In this document: one piece after another, positions 4,031-18,789 of the stretch
How positions within the stretch are numbered: position 1 is the stretch's first letter
How the letters are laid out: each line of letters begins with the position of its first letter
Origin: a virus
Length of the DNA: 26,752 bases
Reading direction: 5' to 3' (one strand)
Virus record (IMG/VR): IMGVR_UViG_3300047409_000295
Span: 1-26,752 of that record
Notes under the pieces: generated by a model
What the model was told of the DNA's origin: nothing
Seen by the model: the letters and a program-made list of their open reading frames with translations, nothing else
Database searches by the model: none
Position numbers and translations under genes: made by a program

Positions 4031-5970
4031 CCGACACCACCGCCGCCGCCGTTACTGATCCCGCCGGTGGCCTGCCGCATCATCGAGGCCATCGCGTTCT
4101 CTGGGCTCATCGACGGGTCGCTCGCGCTCGAGGGCGAGCTCGGGCCGGCCGCGAGACCTGCGTTCGTGATCCCAGCGGACGGGCCGGTCGGGAGCATCGG
4201 CTGCTGTCCTGGCCCTCCGGGCGGTGCACCGGGCGGCGGTGCACCGGCGGTCAAGGCCGGCACCGGCTTGGGCAGGAAGTAGCGTTCCTTGTCCGCGACG
4301 TCGTAGGAGTCGAGAGCCTTCTCCCAGAAGGCGCGCAGGTTAATCGGGGAACCCGAGACCGCGGAGATCTGCGCTCCCTGCAGCGCGATCTGGAGCAGGC
4401 TGTTCGACTCGGCGCGGCGCTCCTGGCGCATCAGCGAGTCCGATGTCACGTCGATCGAGATGTCGTAGTCGCCCTGCACCGAGAGCGGCGTGATCTGGTG
4501 GTAGGCGTGCGCGCCGCTGCCGCCGAGGATCGGAATCACTCGGTCGTCGTCGAGGAACTGCTGGTAGAGCATCAGGAAGTCTTTGCCCAGCTGCGCGTAC
4601 GCCCAGAGGTAGTGCTGCTTGCGCGCCTGGATGATCCGCTGCGCGATCGTCGTGATGATCGAGACGCCGGTCGCTGTCGTCTGGTCGATCGACTGCGAGT
4701 TGACGCCGCCGGCCATCGGCAGCCCGCCCATAATGTTCTGCAGGTCGCCCTTCAGGAGCCCTTCGGCCTCGAGGGTGATGTTCGCGACGGTCGGGTCGAT
4801 CTTCAGCGTGTCGACTTGCGAGAGATCCTCGAGGAACCACTGCGCGTTCGGGGCCCACTCGAAAGCTTCCGGGTCGTCGACGTCTGAGCGGATCAGCGTG
4901 ATCAGGTTCGCCATCAGGCGGACGACGTCGAGCCGCTGGTTCTGGAGCATCCAGAGCATCTCCTGCAGCTGCGCGAGCGCCTCGACGACCGAGATGCCGG
5001 GGATCTGGAAGCCGTCGGGCATGGCGCTGCAGACGACGAAGGGCATGCGGCCGTTCCAGAACGGGTTCGGATCGTCGCGTAGCAGGACGCCGCGGTTGCC
5101 GACGGTGATCACGCGCTCGGGCGTCCAGTACTCGAGCACCTCGACCATGTCCTGGGTGCGGTCGATGTTGCGTAGCCGGCGCTCGCGCTTCGAGAGGTTC
5201 GCGAAGAGGGCGCGGCTGTTCGACTCTTTCAGCTTCGAGACGTTCGAGTAGACGCCGGCCTTCTCGAGTCTTTTGAGCGACGTGTAGGAGCTCCACGTCC
5301 TGTCGATCAGGTACTCGCAGCTTTTCACAGTCGATGCCTGCGCCGGCCAGAAGAAGTCGCGCACGTCGCGCACCTCGCTGCAGGCGTCGTCCTCGACGAG
5401 CGCGTTCTTGCGGACCTCGTCGCGGTGCGTTGCGATCGAGTCGACGGTGTTGCCGTAGGCGTCCTGGATCGCGATCGTGTCCGGCACCTTCATCGTCACG
5501 TCACGCCGCGTCGAACGCCAGTAGTCCTTGATCACGGTGATGCCGGCGATCAGGTCCTGCTGCATGAAGTCGCGCTGCTTCATCGCGAAGCCGTCACGGT
5601 CGAGCGCGTAACGGAGCGTGTCGGAGAGCGCGTCGACGCGATCGAGCCTCTCGACTACTTCCTGCAGCGACTCGTCCGGCTTCGGACGCGGGCGCACGTC
5701 GAAAGCGGGGGAGGGCTCGAGCATCGTCGCGAGCATCCCCTCGCAGGTCTGCAGCACGTAGGGCGTCGTGATGTTCGAGTGCCAGTCTTCGTCGTCGTCG
5801 CCCGTGCTGTCCGAGCCTTCGGGCGCGAGCCCACGGTAGGACTCGTACCGCTTCTCGACCTTCTCGACGAAAGCGTCGTGGTAGCGGCGCTCACAGGTTT
5901 CGACCGCGTGCGTGACCAGCGCGACGGCGTTGTCGACTTCCTGCTGGTCGTAGAGGTCGGTCTCGGCCAT
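4027..5970 (-). CDS. Portal protein
   Basis: This 647-residue protein would form the dodecameric ring through which DNA enters the capsid. It lies after the terminase and before the scaffold and has the expected length for large portals of the P22/SU10-like kind. The N-terminal region has 'DDEDWHSNITTPYVLQTCEGMLA' (membrane-like helix of the portal wing), and the centre has 'DDPNPFWNGRMPFVVCSAMPDGFQIPGISVVEALAQLQ', a hallmark arrangement of portals (P.....P.P...G.S..E.......Q). A Gly/Pro-rich segment (residues ~560-600) separates the core from a disordered C-terminus ending in glycines. The start at 5970 has no clear ribosome site and probably depends on coupling to the upstream gene. Confidence 0.88.
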   Translation of the reverse strand: MAETDLYDQQEVDNAVALVTHAVETCERRYHDAFVEKVEKRYESYRGLAPEGSDSTGDDDEDWHSNITTPYVLQTCEGMLATMLEPSPAFDVRPRPKPDESLQEVVERLDRVDALSDTLRYALDRDGFAMKQRDFMQQDLIAGITVIKDYWRSTRRDVTMKVPDTIAIQDAYGNTVDSIATHRDEVRKNALVEDDACSEVRDVRDFFWPAQASTVKSCEYLIDRTWSSYTSLKRLEKAGVYSNVSKLKESNSRALFANLSKRERRLRNIDRTQDMVEVLEYWTPERVITVGNRGVLLRDDPNPFWNGRMPFVVCSAMPDGFQIPGISVVEALAQLQEMLWMLQNQRLDVVRLMANLITLIRSDVDDPEAFEWAPNAQWFLEDLSQVDTLKIDPTVANITLEAEGLLKGDLQNIMGGLPMAGGVNSQSIDQTTATGVSIITTIAQRIIQARKQHYLWAYAQLGKDFLMLYQQFLDDDRVIPILGGSGAHAYHQITPLSVQGDYDISIDVTSDSLMRQERRAESNSLLQIALQGAQISAVSGSPINLRAFWEKALDSYDVADKERYFLPKPVPALTAGAPPPGAPPGGPGQQPMLPTGPSAGITNAGLAAGPSSPSSASDPSMSPENAMASMMRQATGGISNGGGGGVG

Positions 5971-14100: not shown

Positions 14101-14118
14101 CCCAGTGTTTTCACTGGG
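14101..14118. terminator. Hairpin at the 3' end of the candidate small terminase gene
   Basis: CCCAGTG (14101-14107) and CACTGGG (14112-14118) form a perfect 7-bp stem with a TTTT loop overlapping the stop codon of the minus-strand gene. The minus-strand product lacks a trailing U-run. The plus strand has only TTTC. It is likely a weak terminator or an mRNA 3'-end stabiliser. Confidence 0.45.
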
Positions 14119-14767
14119 TTTCGATGGCCTGTATCGGCGCTGTATCGGTCTCCGCGTACGTGGCGGCGAGGCGCTGCATCTCCTCCCAGCCCATCGCCGC
14201 GACCCCGGCTGCGTCCGCCGGAAGCTCGACTTCGACCGTCATCGACTGCAGCGGGAACGTGCTGTCCAGCATCCTGATCACGGCCTGTTGGCGCTCGACG
14301 GAGCCGAGTTCGACGTCGTCAAGAGGGCCGTCTACCAGGGCTTTTGCTAGCTCGTCGGCACGCGCCAGTGCGGCCAAGCGTGCGTGCTGCCTGGGGTTCC
14401 CGACTCGTCCTGGGCCGATACCTAGCAGCATCCTGCGCTCCTTCAGCTTCACCCGGCTAGCGGTGGCGGCGTCTGCTCCGGCTCCTGGATCGCCGCCGCC
14501 TAGATGGGCTGAGCAGATGCCGTACGTGCGGACTCGCGGTGCTCGACAGCGGCCGCGCTCGGGCATGACGACTCGACACTTGCCGTCGTCTTCGCCTGTG
14601 TACCGCTCGGAGCCTGGAGGGATGCGGTTGACGTCCGGGACGCTCAGGCCTTCCCAGTCGACGTGTGTTTGCGCTGCTAGCCAGGGCAGCGTGCCCTTCT
14701 TCGGCTCCTCGATGATCGCGATCTCGGCCGTTTGTAAAGTCTCGTCAGGTTGACCCATCTGCGTCAT
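14111..14767 (-). CDS. Cys/His-motif phage protein, candidate terminase small subunit
   Basis: The product has 218 residues from ATG 14767 (MTQMGQPDET), preceded by CAGGAG at 6 bases. A second ATG at 14782 lacks a site. Residues about 68-95 carry 'CRVVMPERGRCRAPRVRTYGICSAHLGGG', a C-x8-C-x9-C-x2-H zinc-like motif. A long helical region follows (RVKLKERRMLLGIG, ARLAALARADELAKALVDG). Proteins with a 'C....G.RC......G...C..HGG' motif plus helices are often found at terminase small-subunit positions in actinophages. Here the gene is over 6 kb from the large subunit, so the call is tentative. A regulator is the alternative. Confidence 0.5.
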   Translation of the reverse strand: MTQMGQPDETLQTAEIAIIEEPKKGTLPWLAAQTHVDWEGLSVPDVNRIPPGSERYTGEDDGKCRVVMPERGRCRAPRVRTYGICSAHLGGGDPGAGADAATASRVKLKERRMLLGIGPGRVGNPRQHARLAALARADELAKALVDGPLDDVELGSVERQQAVIRMLDSTFPLQSMTVEVELPADAAGVAAMGWEEMQRLAATYAETDTAPIQAIETQ

Positions 14768-14782
14768 TGCCACTCCTGTCAT

Positions 14783-15120
14783 CGGTGCTTACAGTGGTGA
14801 GCGTCACCCCGGATGAACGCCGCAAGTGAAGGCGCTCTCGTCGGGACAGGGCTACGGCAGACCCGGTCAGTGCGACCGTGGGAGCCGCCTCAGGAAGCCC
14901 GCCGACACCCGCCAGCCTCCTCCGCAGCTTGGAGTCGATGAGAGCCTCCCCATGGTCACACCTTCACGGGTCACTGGCGTAGGGGATAGAGATCCTCCTC
15001 CTACAGGCGCTGGAAGCACGGCGCTGCGAGCTTGACCCTGATGACCGCGGACACGCGGGACGCCTTGTGCGTCGACTGGGGCTCGCAGCATCAACCGCCA
15101 GCGTCACCGGTCGAAAGGGG
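14783..15120. other. Gene-free region before the leader-element gene block
   Basis: This stretch of about 340 bases separates a leftward and a rightward unit. It contains small dyads: GGTGA-GCG-TCACC (14797-14809) and GTAGGGGAT/ATCC...CCTAC near 14979-15004. It also contains a TTGACC near 15033 without a matching -10. It should hold the promoter of the 15188-18002 block, but I cannot place it. An open plus frame here lacks coding character. Confidence 0.4.
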
Positions 15121-15122
15121 GC

Positions 15123-15187
15123 GGGGAAGTCCGAGTTGTTGCCGGACGAGCATCTCCCCAGCCTTGGTCAACTACCGGAGGTCAATC
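15123..15187 (+). promoter_or_regulatory. Leader element copy 1
   Basis: This is a nested hairpin, outer GGGGA/TCCCC (15123-15127, 15155-15159) and inner GTCCG/CGGAC (15129-15133, 15143-15147). After it come CCTTGGTCAACTACC, GGAGG (15177-15181) and ATG 15188. It is the first of seven copies of the conserved box GGTCAAC (15166-15172 here). Confidence 0.75.
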
Positions 15188-15355
15188 ATGTATCAGGTAC
15201 ACGTCCGCGGCTCTGAGCCGCACCCGCTCGTCCGCTCGCAGCGTGAAGCGACGAACCTGGCGAAGGCGCTCGCCCGCAGAGGCGACACCGTCACCGTGCA
15301 TCGCATCGTCCGCGACGGCGCACTGTTCGTCGCGTCCTACGCACCGAAGTCCTAG
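15188..15355 (+). CDS. Small hypothetical protein of the leader-element block
   Basis: This 55-residue protein (MYQVHVRGSEPHPLVRSQRE...) has an alternating pattern with two predicted strands around a helix (EATNLAKALARRGDTVTVHRI) and ends GALFVASYAPKS. The β-α-β layout with 'A..LA..L...G..V.V.R' resembles short SPOR-like or dsRBD-like folds, but no family is certain. ATG 15188 is set by GGAGG and leader element 1. The gene stands alone, followed by element 2. Confidence 0.7.
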   Translation: MYQVHVRGSEPHPLVRSQREATNLAKALARRGDTVTVHRIVRDGALFVASYAPKS

Positions 15356-15361
15356 ACGCCC

Positions 15362-15406
15362 GCTGGGAGCGCATCCCAGCCTTGGTCAACCAACAGGAGG
15401 CTTCAC
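15362..15406 (+). promoter_or_regulatory. Leader element copy 2
   Basis: Perfect stem GCTGGGA (15362-15368) and TCCCAGC (15374-15380), loop GCGCA. Then CTT, GGTCAACCAAC (15384-15394), AGGAGG (15395-15400) and ATG 15407. Confidence 0.8.
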
Positions 15407-15658
15407 ATGTTCGAACCGACCACAGACCGCAACGTCCGCCTTAGCGTGGGCGAGCTACAGGCGATCCGCTGGGCGCTGCGCGACGAGATCACGAAGCGCC
15501 GCCGCAGCATCGCGAAGGCCGAAGCGAACCGCGCCGCCGGTGGGCGCGTCATGCACAACGTGCTGGACGAGCACCACACCGTGCTTCGAGACGCGCTCCA
15601 GGCTCGCACGATTGTCGAGGTCGCGCTGTCGCAGATCGACCTCAAGAACACCCGCTAG
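15407..15658 (+). CDS. Small helical hypothetical protein of the leader-element block
   Basis: The 83-residue product is nearly all helix: 'LSVGELQAIRWALRDEITKRRRSIAKAEANRA' then 'VLDEHHTVLRDALQARTIVEVALSQIDLK'. It reads as a two-helix coiled coil with a central 'AAGGRVMHN' turn. No enzyme motif is seen. It follows leader element 2 and is followed by element 3, so it is its own unit. Function unknown. Confidence 0.75.
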   Translation: MFEPTTDRNVRLSVGELQAIRWALRDEITKRRRSIAKAEANRAAGGRVMHNVLDEHHTVLRDALQARTIVEVALSQIDLKNTR

Positions 15659-15664
15659 CAGAGG

Positions 15665-15705
15665 GCCGCGTGAGCGGCACCTCGGTCAACCAACAGGAGG
15701 TTCAC
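15665..15705 (+). promoter_or_regulatory. Leader element copy 3
   Basis: Stem GCCGC/GCGGC (15665-15669, 15674-15678) with a GTGA (GNRA) loop, then ACCTC, GGTCAACCAAC (15684-15694), AGGAGG and ATG 15706. Confidence 0.8.
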
Positions 15706-15900
15706 ATGAAGTTCAACGACTTCGACCTGGCAACGCACCGCAAGAACCAGGCCGAGGAGGCGCTCGACGCCTTCTACCTCGCCCACGGCTACGACCGTGG
15801 CGCGTACAGCCTCAACGAGCAGGCTGAGGAGCGCCGCCTGGAGCGCCTCGCGCTCGACGCGCACGGCTCCTGGGCCGAACTGAAGTACGGAACGCAGTAG
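15706..15900 (+). CDS. Small hypothetical protein of the leader-element block
   Basis: The 64-residue product starts at ATG 15706 (MKFNDFDLATHRKNQAEEAL). The frame opens earlier at 15670, but the leader element and AGGAGG fix the start. It is helical and charged, with aromatic patches (DAFYLAHGYDRGAYSL) and a closing 'AHGSWAELKYGTQ'. No domain is recognised. Confidence 0.7.
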   Translation: MKFNDFDLATHRKNQAEEALDAFYLAHGYDRGAYSLNEQAEERRLERLALDAHGSWAELKYGTQ

Positions 15901-15903
15901 AGG

Positions 15904-15947
15904 GGCGCTCACGCGCCACCTCGGTCAACCAACCCAAGGGAGGAACC
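15904..15947 (+). promoter_or_regulatory. Leader element copy 4
   Basis: Stem GGCGC/GCGCC (15904-15908, 15913-15917), loop TCAC, then ACCTC, GGTCAACCAAC (15923-15933), AAGGGAGG and ATG 15948. Confidence 0.8.
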
Positions 15948-16121
15948 ATGCAGGATGTCGGCACCATCGCGACCGTCGCGAAGCTCAAGCAGATCGCGAA
16001 CGACGCACAGGACAAGGCGGCTGAATTCAAAAACGCAGGCCGCGACATCGACGCAGCGCACTACGCGGGCATGCGTGACGGCCTGCTCCGCGCCGTCACC
16101 GTGGTTGAGGGGCGCGGCTAG
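15948..16121 (+). CDS. Small helical hypothetical protein of the leader-element block
   Basis: This 57-residue protein (MQDVGTIATVAKLKQIANDA...) consists of two amphipathic helices around 'KNAGRDIDAAHYAGMRDGLL'. ATG 15948 follows leader element 4. Its stop TAG is directly followed by the next ATG with no gap, making a bicistron. No known domain. The helical, Ala-rich composition could suit a protein-protein interaction role. Confidence 0.65.
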   Translation: MQDVGTIATVAKLKQIANDAQDKAAEFKNAGRDIDAAHYAGMRDGLLRAVTVVEGRG

Positions 16122-16310
16122 ATGTTCAGCGTCGAAGATCACGGCAGCATCGTCCTGATTCGCCCGCTCACTCCAGCTGTTGAGGAATGGCTGGACGAGC
16201 GTGTCGGCGGCGAGGACGTGCAGTACTGGGGTGACGCAGTCGTCGTTGAGCCGCGCTACGTGCGGCCGATTGTCGAGGCGCTGATCGCAGAGGGGTTCGC
16301 CGCGCAGTAG
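16122..16310 (+). CDS. Conserved small phage/plasmid protein
   Basis: The 62-residue product has 'SIVLIRPLTPAVEEWLDERV...VQYWGDAVVVEPRYVRPIVEALIAEGF'. The run 'L.PLT..A..W.....' followed by '...G.A.VVE.RY...IV......GF' is one I have seen repeatedly in phage and mobile-element small proteins of unknown function. It begins one base after the previous stop, has no leader element of its own, and its stop lies inside the hairpin of element 5. Confidence 0.75.
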   Translation: MFSVEDHGSIVLIRPLTPAVEEWLDERVGGEDVQYWGDAVVVEPRYVRPIVEALIAEGFAAQ

Positions 16311-16344
16311 CGCGGCACCTCGGTCAACCAACTAGGAGGACATC
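16299..16344 (+). promoter_or_regulatory. Leader element copy 5
   Basis: Stem GCCGCGC/GCGCGGC (16299-16305, 16310-16316) with loop AGTA containing part of the upstream TAG. Then ACCTC, GGTCAACCAAC (16322-16332), AGGAGG and ATG 16345. Confidence 0.8.
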
Positions 16345-16704
16345 ATGTGCAAGTGCGACGAATGCACCGGCGGCGCGCTCGACTACGCCGACGGATTTCG
16401 CAGGCTCTGCGACGAGTACGGCATCGAGCCTGAGAACGACGACACGACGATGAACGAGGACGCAGGCCTGTACCTCGATCCTGAGGACAGCGACTACGTG
16501 CTCGACCAGTTCGTGCTCGTCTCGCACGCTGGCGAGTACGCCTACCTGAAGTGCTTCGCCACGCTCGACCTCGCGAAGCGCGAGGCGTTCTATAACGTCG
16601 ATGACGACATCTACGCCGAGGCTCCGAGCCTCATCGTCGACCTCGACACGGGCGAGCGCTGGAAGCCCGACTACGCGCAGTGCCCCTGGAAGCTCGCGTC
16701 ATGA
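16345..16704 (+). CDS. Acidic Cys-motif protein of the leader-element block
   Basis: The 119-residue product starts with MCKCDECTGGALDYADGF, giving a Cys2-x-Cys4-x2-Cys7 cluster that could bind metal. It is then strongly acidic (DEYGIEPENDD, NEDAGLYLDPEDSDYVLDQF) with a β-rich second half (VLVSHAGEYAYLKCFATL) and a closing 'PSLIVDLDTGERWKPDYAQC'. A high Asp/Glu charge is seen in DNA mimics and inhibitors, but nothing here proves that. The stop overlaps the next ATG. Confidence 0.7.
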   Translation: MCKCDECTGGALDYADGFRRLCDEYGIEPENDDTTMNEDAGLYLDPEDSDYVLDQFVLVSHAGEYAYLKCFATLDLAKREAFYNVDDDIYAEAPSLIVDLDTGERWKPDYAQCPWKLAS

Positions 16705-16904
16705 GCGAGCCGCCACAGACCCTCGTCGCCGTCGAGTCGATGAACGACGGCGAAGTCTCATGGCTCGCAGGCCCGTTCGCTACCGGCGACGAGGCCGAGG
16801 CCTGGATGGACACATTCATCAGCACGACCCAGTACGACCGCGACTTCGTCTACCTCGTTTGGCCGACACCGCCCGACGAGGTGATGCGAGCGCACACAGA
16901 GTGA
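16701..16904 (+). CDS. Small hypothetical protein of the leader-element block
   Basis: The 67-residue product starts at ATG 16701 (MSEPPQTLVAVESMNDGEVS), overlapping the previous stop as ATGA. The frame is open from 16680, but that extension overlaps the upstream gene. The pattern 'WLAGPFATGDEAEAWMDTFI' followed by 'DRDFVYLVWPT' suggests a β-α-β unit. Net charge is acidic. Its TGA lies at the base of the element 6 hairpin. Function unknown. Confidence 0.65.
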   Translation: MSEPPQTLVAVESMNDGEVSWLAGPFATGDEAEAWMDTFISTTQYDRDFVYLVWPTPPDEVMRAHTE

Positions 16905-16945
16905 CCGCTTCGGCGGTCTCTCGGTCAAACCAACTAGGAGGAATC
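16903..16945 (+). promoter_or_regulatory. Leader element copy 6
   Basis: Stem GACCGC/GCGGTC (16903-16908, 16913-16918) closed by a TTCG loop. Then TCTC, GGTCAAACCAAC (16923-16934, one extra A against the other copies), AGGAGG and ATG 16946. Confidence 0.8.
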
Positions 16946-17233
16946 ATGAGCAACAGAACGGAGTACAACGAGTTCCTGTGGATCGAGACCGGCGTAACCG
17001 GAGCCGCGCAGGAGTCCGACTTCATGAACGGCACACTGCAGAGCACGCTCGGCAGTGGGCTGGACTTCACCGTGCAGACCTTCGTCGGCACGCCCGCAGG
17101 AATCGAGACTGAAGAGCAGCTGCGCGATTACCTCGCGACGACGTTGCAGAAGATCGTCGACCTCAATCTCGAGATCGCTTTCGATGTCCAGGTGGGACCC
17201 GCCGGTGACGGCGAGTCCGACGACGATGCCTGA
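16946..17233 (+). CDS. Hypothetical protein of the leader-element block
   Basis: The product has 95 residues from ATG 16946 (MSNRTEYNEFLWIETGVTGA). Residues about 36-80 alternate strand and helix (GSGLDFTVQTFVG, TEEQLRDYLATTLQKIVDLNLEIAFDVQVG), and it ends in an acidic tail GDGESDDDA. ATG follows element 6 directly. The last codons overlap the start of a broken zinc-ribbon frame. Function unknown. Confidence 0.7.
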   Translation: MSNRTEYNEFLWIETGVTGAAQESDFMNGTLQSTLGSGLDFTVQTFVGTPAGIETEEQLRDYLATTLQKIVDLNLEIAFDVQVGPAGDGESDDDA

Positions 17234-17369
17234 GTGACGGCGCGTCGAGGGACGCACCCGCTGCCAGGACTGCGGCGACATCGTCACCGTCAGCTGGAAG
17301 CTCTTCGTCACGCCGACGCAGTCGACGCAGTGCTTGTGCGAGACCTGCGTCGAGGAGAAGACGGCCTAG
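17226..17369 (+). pseudogene. Zinc-ribbon frame with an early in-frame TGA
   Basis: Reading from ATG 17226 gives MPE, then TGA at 17235-17237, then RRVEGRTRCQDCGDIVTVSW...TQCLCETCVEEKTA to TAG 17369. The CQDC and CLCETC pairs make a convincing small zinc ribbon. No ATG, GTG or TTG lies between the TGA and the ribbon. It is therefore a broken gene, a read-through product (TGA-C context) or one with an unusual start. GTG 17234 opens a different frame of poor quality. Confidence 0.5.
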
Positions 17370-17404
17370 CGCCGTCTCCTCGGTCAACTACCAAGGAGGA
17401 ACAC
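17359..17404 (+). promoter_or_regulatory. Leader element copy 7
   Basis: Stem AGACGGC/GCCGTCT (17359-17365, 17371-17377) with loop CTAGC holding the upstream TAG. Then CCTC, GGTCAACTACC (17382-17392), AAGGAGG and ATG 17405. Confidence 0.8.
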
Positions 17405-17650
17405 ATGGACCCGAACCTGGACGACGTGTACGTCAATCGCGACGGCACGATTCGCTGGAACGGTGACGCGATCGGAACGGTCGCCAAGGTCGAAGTCAAT
17501 TCGGGATTCGCGATCGCCGGAATGATGTGGCGAGCGGAGATCGGTGACGCCGCGAAGCCCGAAGAGTGGCCCCCGTACCGCGCCTCGTACGCGAGGACGC
17601 GCAAGGCCGCGATCTGGGACGTGCTTGCCGACGTCGAGGCACCGACATGA
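17405..17650 (+). CDS. Hypothetical protein of the leader-element block
   Basis: The 81-residue product starts MDPNLDDVYVNRDGTIRWNG at the ATG after element 7. The first half is β-rich (VYVNRDGTIRWNGDAIGTVAKVEV), like a small barrel or wing. The second half has 'MMWRAEIGDAAKPEEWPPYRASYARTRKAAIWDVLADVE', resembling small phage proteins that carry 'W......A..R..A...L'. An open frame from 17234 runs into it, but that part is a shadow of the zinc-ribbon frame. The stop overlaps the next ATG. Confidence 0.7.
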   Translation: MDPNLDDVYVNRDGTIRWNGDAIGTVAKVEVNSGFAIAGMMWRAEIGDAAKPEEWPPYRASYARTRKAAIWDVLADVEAPT

Positions 17651-17811
17651 ACTACTACGACCAACCGATCATCGACCCGGCTCTGTTCGACGGCGAGCAC
17701 GTCGCGAACCCCGTCAGCGCCGGACTGCCGCCGGTCTGCTCATGCGGCTGGACACCGCACGGCGAGTACACGCTTGCTGATCACCTACGCGAGATGAAGG
17801 AGGCGACATGA
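17647..17811 (+). CDS. Small zinc-finger-like protein
   Basis: This 54-residue protein (MNYYDQPIIDPALFDGEHVA...) contains CSCGW near 31-35 and a later His in 'LADHLREMK'. The spacing 'C.CGW.....EYTLADHL' resembles single small zinc fingers in actinophage proteins. ATG overlaps the preceding stop and TGA overlaps the next ATG. Function unknown. Confidence 0.6.
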   Translation: MNYYDQPIIDPALFDGEHVANPVSAGLPPVCSCGWTPHGEYTLADHLREMKEAT

Positions 17812-18002
17812 CCGAGAAGCTCGACATCGTCGGCATGGCCGAGATCGCGCAGATGCTCGGCATGCCGCGCAACACCGTTAACCAGTGGCGCTTTCGCGGG
17901 CTGCTGCCTGCGCCGGCCACCGAGCTTGCGACCGGCCCTGTCTGGTACCGGCGCGTCATTGAGGAATGGGCGGCGAATCGCGCTGCGAAATCGCCCGCCT
18001 GA
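17808..18002 (+). CDS. MerR/HTH_17-like DNA-binding protein
   Basis: The 64-residue product has a helix-turn-helix at about 7-40: 'IVGMAEIAQMLGMPRNTVNQWRFRGLLPAPATEL', followed by the wing 'GPVWYRRVIEEWAANR'. This is the layout of excisionase-like and MerR-type small DNA-binding proteins. It is the last gene of the leader-element block, coupled by ATGA. It may be a regulator acting within the block or an excisionase. A second such protein lies at 26330. Confidence 0.8.
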   Translation: MTEKLDIVGMAEIAQMLGMPRNTVNQWRFRGLLPAPATELATGPVWYRRVIEEWAANRAAKSPA

Positions 18003-18007
18003 TTCCG

Positions 18008-18028
18008 GGGAGGATCTCTGTCCCTTTT
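18008..18028 (+). terminator. Weak terminator candidate between convergent genes
   Basis: GGGA (18008-18011) and TCCC (18021-18024) form a 4-bp stem followed by TTTT, right after the last plus-strand gene of the block and before the end of the convergent gene at 18067. It fits by place, but the stem is weak. Confidence 0.25.
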
Positions 18029-18066
18029 CCCGTTTCAGGGGTCGCTTCGCCACCCAGATAGACGCC

Positions 18067-18789
18067 TCACGTCGCCCTCACGGGGACCCCGGCTGCCCGA
18101 GAGTCTAGCGCCTTGAGTTGCCGCCGCACCGCCTTTTTGGTCATCCCCAGCTTCCTCGCGATCTCGCCTGCCTGCAGGCCGAGCGCGGCGAGCGTAGCGA
18201 CCGTCTCGACCCGCTTCTGCGGCTCCCTCAGCCAGCGCGGGACGCGGACGACGCGCATGCGCAGGGCGAGGCTGACGACGCCGAGCTCGACCTCCAGGAG
18301 CGCCCACGGGGTCACCTCGCGGGGCTGCTGCTCGACCAGGATCACCTGGACGAGATGGTGCCGGGATGGGACGGTCAGGCGCAGCCATTCGAGGTGGCGG
18401 CGAAGCTCGACGTAGGATCCCTGCCTGTCCTGCGCTCGGCGTTGCCGCTCCCATGCGTAGGACTCGTCCTCGAGCGGCTCGGCGGCTCGAGGACGGCGTC
18501 CAAGCTCCTGCGGTAGCTGCACCGCCTCATCGAGCGGGAGGCGCATGTAGGCGTCCCAGGCGGGGTCGCCGTGCTCGCGCCGCTTCTCGCCCGTGCCGCC
18601 GCAGACGAGGCAGAGCACGTAACCCCCACGCGCTCGTACGCGGCCCGTGGAACGGCAGGTCTCGCAGGGCAGATATCGCGAGAGGGCTGGCCCAGAATCT
18701 GGACGCAGAGCGCCTCTCAGTGACGGATACGGCTCGTTGAGGCTCCCGAGCAGGAGCCTGACACCCTCGACGCGCTGCACTAGCTCCAC
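18067..18789 (-). CDS. Zinc-finger plus helix-turn-helix regulator
   Basis: The 240-residue product starts at GTG 18789, with GGAGG 5 bases upstream. Residues 42-63 hold CETC and CLVC pairs with 'STGR' and 'GGTGE' turns, a DnaJ-type zinc finger. The middle is Arg-rich and helical. Residues about 193-228 (VETVATLAALGLQAGEIARKLGMTKKAVRRQLKAL) form a clear helix-turn-helix of the resolvase/sigma-4 type. It is probably a transcription regulator of the switch region, placed beside another leftward HTH gene. The family is not recognised. Confidence 0.75.
   Translation of the reverse strand: MELVQRVEGVRLLLGSLNEPYPSLRGALRPDSGPALSRYLPCETCRSTGRVRARGGYVLCLVCGGTGEKRREHGDPAWDAYMRLPLDEAVQLPQELGRRPRAAEPLEDESYAWERQRRAQDRQGSYVELRRHLEWLRLTVPSRHHLVQVILVEQQPREVTPWALLEVELGVVSLALRMRVVRVPRWLREPQKRVETVATLAALGLQAGEIARKLGMTKKAVRRQLKALDSRAAGVPVRAT

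Follow-up and report, generated by a model that had tools for sequence, protein, structure and literature searches.

In the 26,752-base viral genome IMGVR_UViG_3300047409_000295, a complete IMG/VR record that we analysed whole (the window, or W), seven translation starts in one gene row share a composite element made of a hairpin, a YGGTCAA box, a Shine-Dalgarno (SD) sequence of the form (A/G/C)GGAGG and an ATG. Related IMG/VR records carry it as well, and we count 51 elements over seven phage types and nine records (two near copies of one relative, R3 and R4 below, being counted with it). Judged from sequence comparison, the element is a selected RNA in which the hairpin is kept for its structure and the box, GGUCAA(C), for its sequence. 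Every record with an array of such elements also carries a structured leader RNA, which heads the operon.

The element and its copies

The starts lie at 15188, 15407, 15706, 15948, 16345, 16946 and 17405, where an earlier note on this DNA had placed a shared leader, and hairpin, box, SD and ATG are present at each of them:

15123..15159, + strand: stem of copy 1, a two-part hairpin that is also helix P4 of the leader RNA
15166..15190, + strand: box GGTCAACTACC and start of copy 1, with SD CGGAGG and ATG 15188
15362..15409, + strand: copy 2, with stem GCTGGGA/TCCCAGC, GNRNA loop GCGCA, box, SD and ATG 15407
15665..15708, + strand: copy 3, with stem GCCGC/GCGGC, GNRA loop GTGA, box, SD and ATG 15706
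15904..15950, + strand: copy 4, with stem GGCGC/GCGCC, box, SD GGGAGG and ATG 15948
16299..16347, + strand: copy 5, with stem GCCGCGC/GCGCGGC, the TAG of the preceding gene in its loop, box, SD and ATG 16345
16903..16948, + strand: copy 6, with stem GACCGC/GCGGTC, UUCG loop, box GGTCAAACCAAC (one extra A), SD and ATG 16946
17359..17407, + strand: copy 7, with stem AGACGGC/GCCGTCT, box GGTCAACTACC, SD and ATG 17405

With at most one mismatch allowed, the box occurs six times in the window, each time in this stretch, against 0.84 expected, and none of 100 shuffles reached six occurrences. The earlier note had given all copies a short stem, an AGGAGG and a near-constant box. The last of these holds, with the extra A of copy 6, and AGGAGG holds except in copies 1 and 4. 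Copy 1 has, instead of a short stem, two helical parts (GGGGA/TCCCC and GTCCG/CGGAC, with internal loop A/GAGCATC), and these form the last helix of a longer leader that begins near 14991.

Pattern scans of IMG/VR retrieved eight further records, each with several copies of the element. The remaining matches of these scans, single sites with no further copy, were taken as chance. The eight records are:

R1: 3300010398_000677
R2: 3300048892_000092
R3: 3300009177_000071, a near copy of R2
R4: 3300048895_000327, a near copy of R2
R5: 3300036835_000580
R6: 3300012200_000021
R7: 3300047160_023963, fetched through the box pattern alone
R8: 3300048905_000139, fetched through the leader pattern alone, its boxes being seen afterwards

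Stems that end 0-7 nt upstream of the box were scored in 39 elements of W, R1, R2, R5 and R6. Watson-Crick pairing over 5 bp or more is present in 35 of these 39 elements but in just 12 of 136 other SD-led starts, and 200 dinucleotide shuffles gave a mean of 3.3 and a maximum of 9. When arms are combined across copies, perfect pairing results in only 52 of 1190 cases. The loops are of kinds typical of RNA: among 23 tetraloops, seven are UUCG and five GNRA, and eight of 14 pentaloops are GNRNA. Where stems were extended outward in 44 elements, the sense strand gave 21 G·U and six A·C pairs, matching the expectation for sense-strand RNA. The earlier note had argued for selection on structure from the window's own copies. 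Pairing that is common within copies and rare between them, the loop types and the G·U pairs on the transcribed strand all uphold that argument. Recurrence and covariation in related phages had been set beforehand as its test, and both were found.

The box is as constant as the stem is variable, so that structure and sequence are cleanly separated in this element. The 44 elements were collected with the pattern GGTCA[AC], which itself fixes the first five box positions; after GGTCA, the next base is A in 41 of the 44 and the following one C in 42. The SD lies 9-16 nt after the start of the box, and the element always stands just before a start. Variants exist: R8 also has a GGTTAAC form, and half of the boxes in R6 read GGTCAC. 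In R7, inspection shows a further inverted repeat separating the box from the SD in two modules, which indicates that box and SD are distinct sites.

The leader RNA heading the operon

The leader, which the earlier note had overlooked, is about 170 nt long (14991-15159) and lies upstream of gene 1, and its last helix, with the box that follows, is copy 1. Copies elsewhere are at L010 9251-9420, L008 about 4708-4880, L040 11502-11674, L041 2668-2849 and L049 1620-1796. Helices P0, P1, P2, P3 and P4 form in all seven phage types, and most of them differ in sequence from type to type. The parts in the window, with the probable promoter of the operon, are:

14767..14795, + strand: probable early-operon promoter, TTGCCA-17-TACAGT
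14992..15004, + strand: block A, a 5' tail resembling an anti-SD sequence, ATCCTCCTCCTAC
15006-15013/15098-15105, + strand: P0, enclosing P2 and P3, paired in all seven types with different sequence
15023-15031/15081-15089, + strand: P1, likewise enclosing P2 and P3, paired in all seven types
15032..15044, + strand: block B, at the three-way junction, TTGACCCTGATGA, invariant in all types
15045-15058, + strand: P2, with compensatory changes, 100% of cells paired
15059-15073, + strand: P3, with compensatory changes, 100% of cells paired
15109..15118, + strand: block C, between P0' and P4, GGTCGAAAGG (GGTCGAATGG in R8, GGCCGAATGG in R7)

The three blocks are conserved and unpaired. Block A is identical in W, R5 and R7 and takes the form CCTTCTCC in R1, R6 and R8. 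The TTGACC within block B is the complement of the box GGTCAA. Both parts of P4 (P4a and P4b) covary in all types, and the internal loop GAGC is kept. Over eight sequences, 16 of the 19 pairs in the P1-P3 core are changed on both sides. The pairing and covariation observed there were reached in none of 500 shuffles, either with six sequences or with eight, the eight-sequence alignment having been fitted to the model. The leader model detects R7 at E 2e-9 and R8 at E 3e-14. No family in Rfam 15 matches the leader (weak sub-threshold matches elsewhere were ascribed to chance), and on its covariation we regard it as a new structured RNA family, absent from that release.

The probable promoter is the sole promoter-like match in 14600-18200, where 0.2 would be expected; none lies inside the repeats. 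Starting from it, the 5' region would be nearly 400 nt long. Inspection by eye places TACNTT-type -10 sites about as far upstream of the leader in R1, R3, R5 and R6. A divergent gene on the - strand (14111-14782 in the window), with a Cys/His-rich motif and no Pfam or PHROG match, is a conserved neighbour of the leader.

Predicted folds of W, R1, R6, R7 and R8 have block A paired with the gene 1 SD. Among the other SDs, block A variants also match those within their own phage more closely than those in the remaining phages (permutation 0.006, a post hoc value uncorrected for relatedness). Other readings of the leader were rejected. A switch between GAGG/CCTC and the SD is not general, since CCTC is absent in R7 and R8. 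A hammerhead ribozyme (CUGAUGA ... CGAAA), which would need a single closed stem II linking GAAA to CUGAUGA, does not suit the strand order, because CUGAUGA is followed by P2 and P3 without an intervening GAA and CGAAA sits beyond P1' and P0'. A pseudoknot within the leader (TTGACC:GGTC(G)AA) could form, yet R7 has GGCC at that place.

Translation units, gene row and lineage

The coupled genes at 16122, 16701, 17647 and 17808 carry no element, as the earlier note had observed, and their starts overlap or abut the preceding stop. Two of them have homologues that tell apart a link to the gene from a link to its position:

16122..16310, + strand: coupled second gene without an element; its R1 homologue (10669) stands alone with its own element
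17808..18002, + strand: coupled last gene, helix-turn-helix/excisionase-like; its R2 homologue (6561) has its own element

In W, R2 and R6, the genes of the 16122 family are coupled and lack the element, and the one in R1 is separate and has it. For the 17808 family, coupling is seen in W, R1 and R6, and a separate gene with an element in R2. On this comparison, the element marks independent translation units, not particular genes.

Hairpins and preceding genes are closely interwoven. That the preceding stop lies inside the stem or at its base in three cases is confirmed by a TAG in the copy 5 loop, a TGA in the 5' arm of copy 6 and a TAG in the copy 7 loop. For copy 7 the TAG is present, but the frame that ends there lacks a clear start codon in the contig. 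In copies 2-4 the stop is 3-6 nt before the stem. Over all elements scored, it lies before the stem in 19, in the loop in 11 and in an arm in two. In the 16122 family, the final codons of the W, R2 and R6 genes form one arm, and the stems there are kept despite different pairs or register. As a side observation, the frame that ends in the copy 7 loop (17238-17369) encodes a zinc-ribbon-like peptide (CQDCGD...CLCETC), and a similar frame in R2 starts with ATG.

The genes behind the elements vary widely. Only six boxed-gene families are common to more than one phage type, and they come in varying order: gene 1 of R1 corresponds to boxed gene 6 of R7, gene 1 of R6 to boxed gene 2 of R7, and genes 5 and 7 of R1 to genes 3 and 2 of R6. 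The flanking genes, for their part, are common to the phage types and keep the same order. R2 and R3 are about 95-99% identical through the gene row and its flanks, and differ (L003 vs L005/L008) by two exact element-gene units, gained or lost. Both junctions fall within the box region, with the stem coming from one element and the SD from a second. R5 has a boxed gene for an ArdC-type antirestriction protein (E below 1e-36). The row may be an exchangeable set of host-takeover or counter-defence genes, a role that we infer for all members except ArdC.

Some further observations concern single loci. The ArdC-type gene (L010 10107-11183) combines ArdcN with a zincin-like metallopeptidase, and its frame seems to continue into the boxed gene that follows, perhaps owing to a frameshift in the contig. 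At L022 about 1016 and at R7 position 42556 (L043), a box-like GGTCAAC stands before a gene with no clear hairpin of this kind and directly follows a promoter-like sequence, GGTAAAATGTGT. The R1 phage has a tRNA-Cys gene (L001 11537-11609).

Among isolated phages, neither the element region nor the capsid protein has a match. The major head protein (1391-2584, - strand) found no tblastn match among 50,697 phage records, and by that measure the lineage of W has no isolates in the collection. Against isolated phages, the terminase reaches a best identity of about 30%, the leader gives two matches at chance level, and short box queries give weak single-site matches only. The leader model matched none of 396 sampled host genomes of one phylum, which we take to be Actinomycetota from the M. 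colombiense centre of the sample; the capsid protein, in the host-genome comparison, gave only matches of 25-28%. A scan of genome contigs yielded five single-site matches, none with a second copy, which were judged to be chance. Nothing relevant to the box sequence was found in the literature. We regard the phage types as a new and uncultured lineage.

Possible modes of action and known counterparts

The reading that we prefer, and to which we give about an even chance, is that hairpin, GGUCAA(C) box and SD form one RNA module through which a shared recogniser controls all of these starts at translation. The module would mark each of the independent translation starts in a single variable row of early genes, with the hairpin contributing by structure and the box by sequence. 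Coupled genes would be translated along with the gene before them and for that reason would need no module. The leader, which heads the row and holds the first module, could close its 5' anti-SD tract on the first SD, and in the version that we favour it might be the recogniser or part of it, whether in cis or as a released RNA. The leader is a candidate for recognising all modules because block A closes on the first SD in predicted folds and block B complements the box, and a protein recogniser is equally possible. The interpretation in the earlier note is upheld in part; for the phage protein that it had proposed as recogniser of a shared switch, no candidate was found. A fuller version, in which the leader serves as the hub of the operon and its anti-SD tract and UUGACC junction pair with the SD and box of any module on the transcript, strikes us as unlikely. 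If true, one structured RNA would control many genes that differ between phages and that can be swapped as module-gene units.

Several results weigh against translational control by a shared recogniser, and against the leader in that part. Shuffling the upstream hairpin leaves the predicted accessibility of the SD unchanged (0.44 vs 0.43), so a simple release of the SD is not how the hairpin acts; insulation of the SD from the region upstream of the box was rejected on the same result. The complementarity between box and leader is just 6 bp, and the GGTCAC boxes of R6 occur without a matching change in its leader. Both the box and its complement are nearly invariant, and consequently they allow no covariation test. 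The fold puts a long distance between blocks A and B, and the predicted pairing of block A with the first SD is missing from the folds of R3 and R5. A common RNA-binding protein across the phages was not identified. Two other routes to control were discarded: pairing of the box with 16S rRNA (a Mycobacterium 16S locus has no GTTGACC or GGTTGACC, and its lone TTGACC is apparently in the flank) and autoregulation by the gene 1 protein, as gene 1 differs between phages.

A fair though less likely alternative is intercistronic processing, in which a nuclease cuts at or near the single-stranded box. The hairpin would then protect the upstream 3' end, and the downstream genes would become monocistronic messages starting just before the SD. 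The position of the elements between units, the stops just before or inside the hairpins, and the invariant, unpaired box would all suit such cutting. The plastid intercistronic expression element works in this way (PMC2230500): it is likewise small, lies between genes of a polycistronic RNA and yields separately translatable messages, but it belongs to a plant plastid and is a single element, an analogy of use only. However, copy 1 and block C of the leader have no upstream gene to separate, a ribosome terminating at a loop stop would keep the hairpin open, and there is no nuclease candidate.

The element might also be a constitutive platform for strong translation starts, with hairpin and CA-rich box making a good landing site for ribosomes and no regulator involved. 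Predicted accessibilities favour this, as SD regions at boxed starts are slightly more open than at other starts (0.44 vs 0.37, p 0.026) and so are the start codons (0.58 vs 0.42). We consider this explanation improbable: a near-invariant GGUCAA exceeds the needs of an open CA-rich stretch, predicted SD opening is unaffected by the hairpin, and the hairpin-box form is confined to the operon carrying the leader.

Control of transcription has still less to recommend it, and we rate it very improbable. The leader would be a put-type RNA for processive antitermination and the hairpins pause or termination points that it overcomes. In lambdoid phages, put RNA and nut sites place a structured RNA near the start of an early operon and a hairpin beside a linear box, and the leader here is a structured RNA that contains invariant unpaired blocks and lies close to the beginning of the early operon in every type. 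The order of hairpin and box, however, is reversed relative to boxA-boxB, and the box is tied to the SD in many copies. Termination at the hairpins, which the earlier note had raised as a question, is unsupported: none of the seven stems is a + strand terminator-like site or is followed by a run of T, and CYCGGTCAACC stands after the stems in place of a U tract. The box and its fixed place before the SD would also be left unexplained. Integron attC-like sites were rejected by inspection, because the opposite arm holds no partner for the box.

Least probable is that the element mainly keeps the row modular as a recombination joint, as in cassette arrays. The R2/R3 junctions inside the box region and the common gene families at different ranks would fit, but selection for intact leaders alone would produce them too, and neither the RNA-type loops nor the G·U pairs would be accounted for. 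Ordinary homologous recombination would have very little length to work on in the shared box, and the array contains no gene that was recognised as a recombinase.

The element has its nearest counterparts in the start-associated repeats reported since 2011 from actinobacterial phages, where their function is not known. The start-associated sequences (SAS) and extended start-associated sequences (ESAS) of cluster K mycobacteriophages are, in the excerpts of those reports that we draw on, short repeats directly before the starts of many gene families, of no known function, and about half of the SAS have an upstream inverted repeat (PMC3203893, PMC11373665). The parallel was pointed out in the earlier note and stands as an analogy and not as homology. 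The SAS described there is GGGATAGGAGCCC, a 13-bp consensus with no match at up to two mismatches in the window. The ESAS is described as a 17-bp inverted repeat of conserved sequence with a SigA-like promoter (-35/-10) inside it, whereas here the stem varies freely, has RNA loops and holds no promoter. In these excerpts no structured leader RNA is described for SAS or ESAS, and the operon here is headed by one.

Similar repeats are reported, in the portions of the source used here, for Microbacterium phages: the SAS/ESAS of cluster EF and the inverted repeats of EG, together with those of cluster O mycobacteriophages, number about 8-12 copies before starts, those of EG lying 14-22 bp before start codons at one genome end (PMC7302621). 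The EC and EI motifs, also among the nearest kind in that account, have no known function. The EF, EG and O repeats are conserved in sequence, and those portions describe neither a variable stem nor a leader RNA for them (PMC7302621). Here, the element is linked to independent starts and always occurs together with the new structured RNA, which makes its function testable with reporters. Box and leader model together offer a handle for finding small early genes, antirestriction genes among them, where uncultured phages have proteins without any match. Consequently, we place the element among the start-associated elements, as a variant that is joined with a new RNA family.

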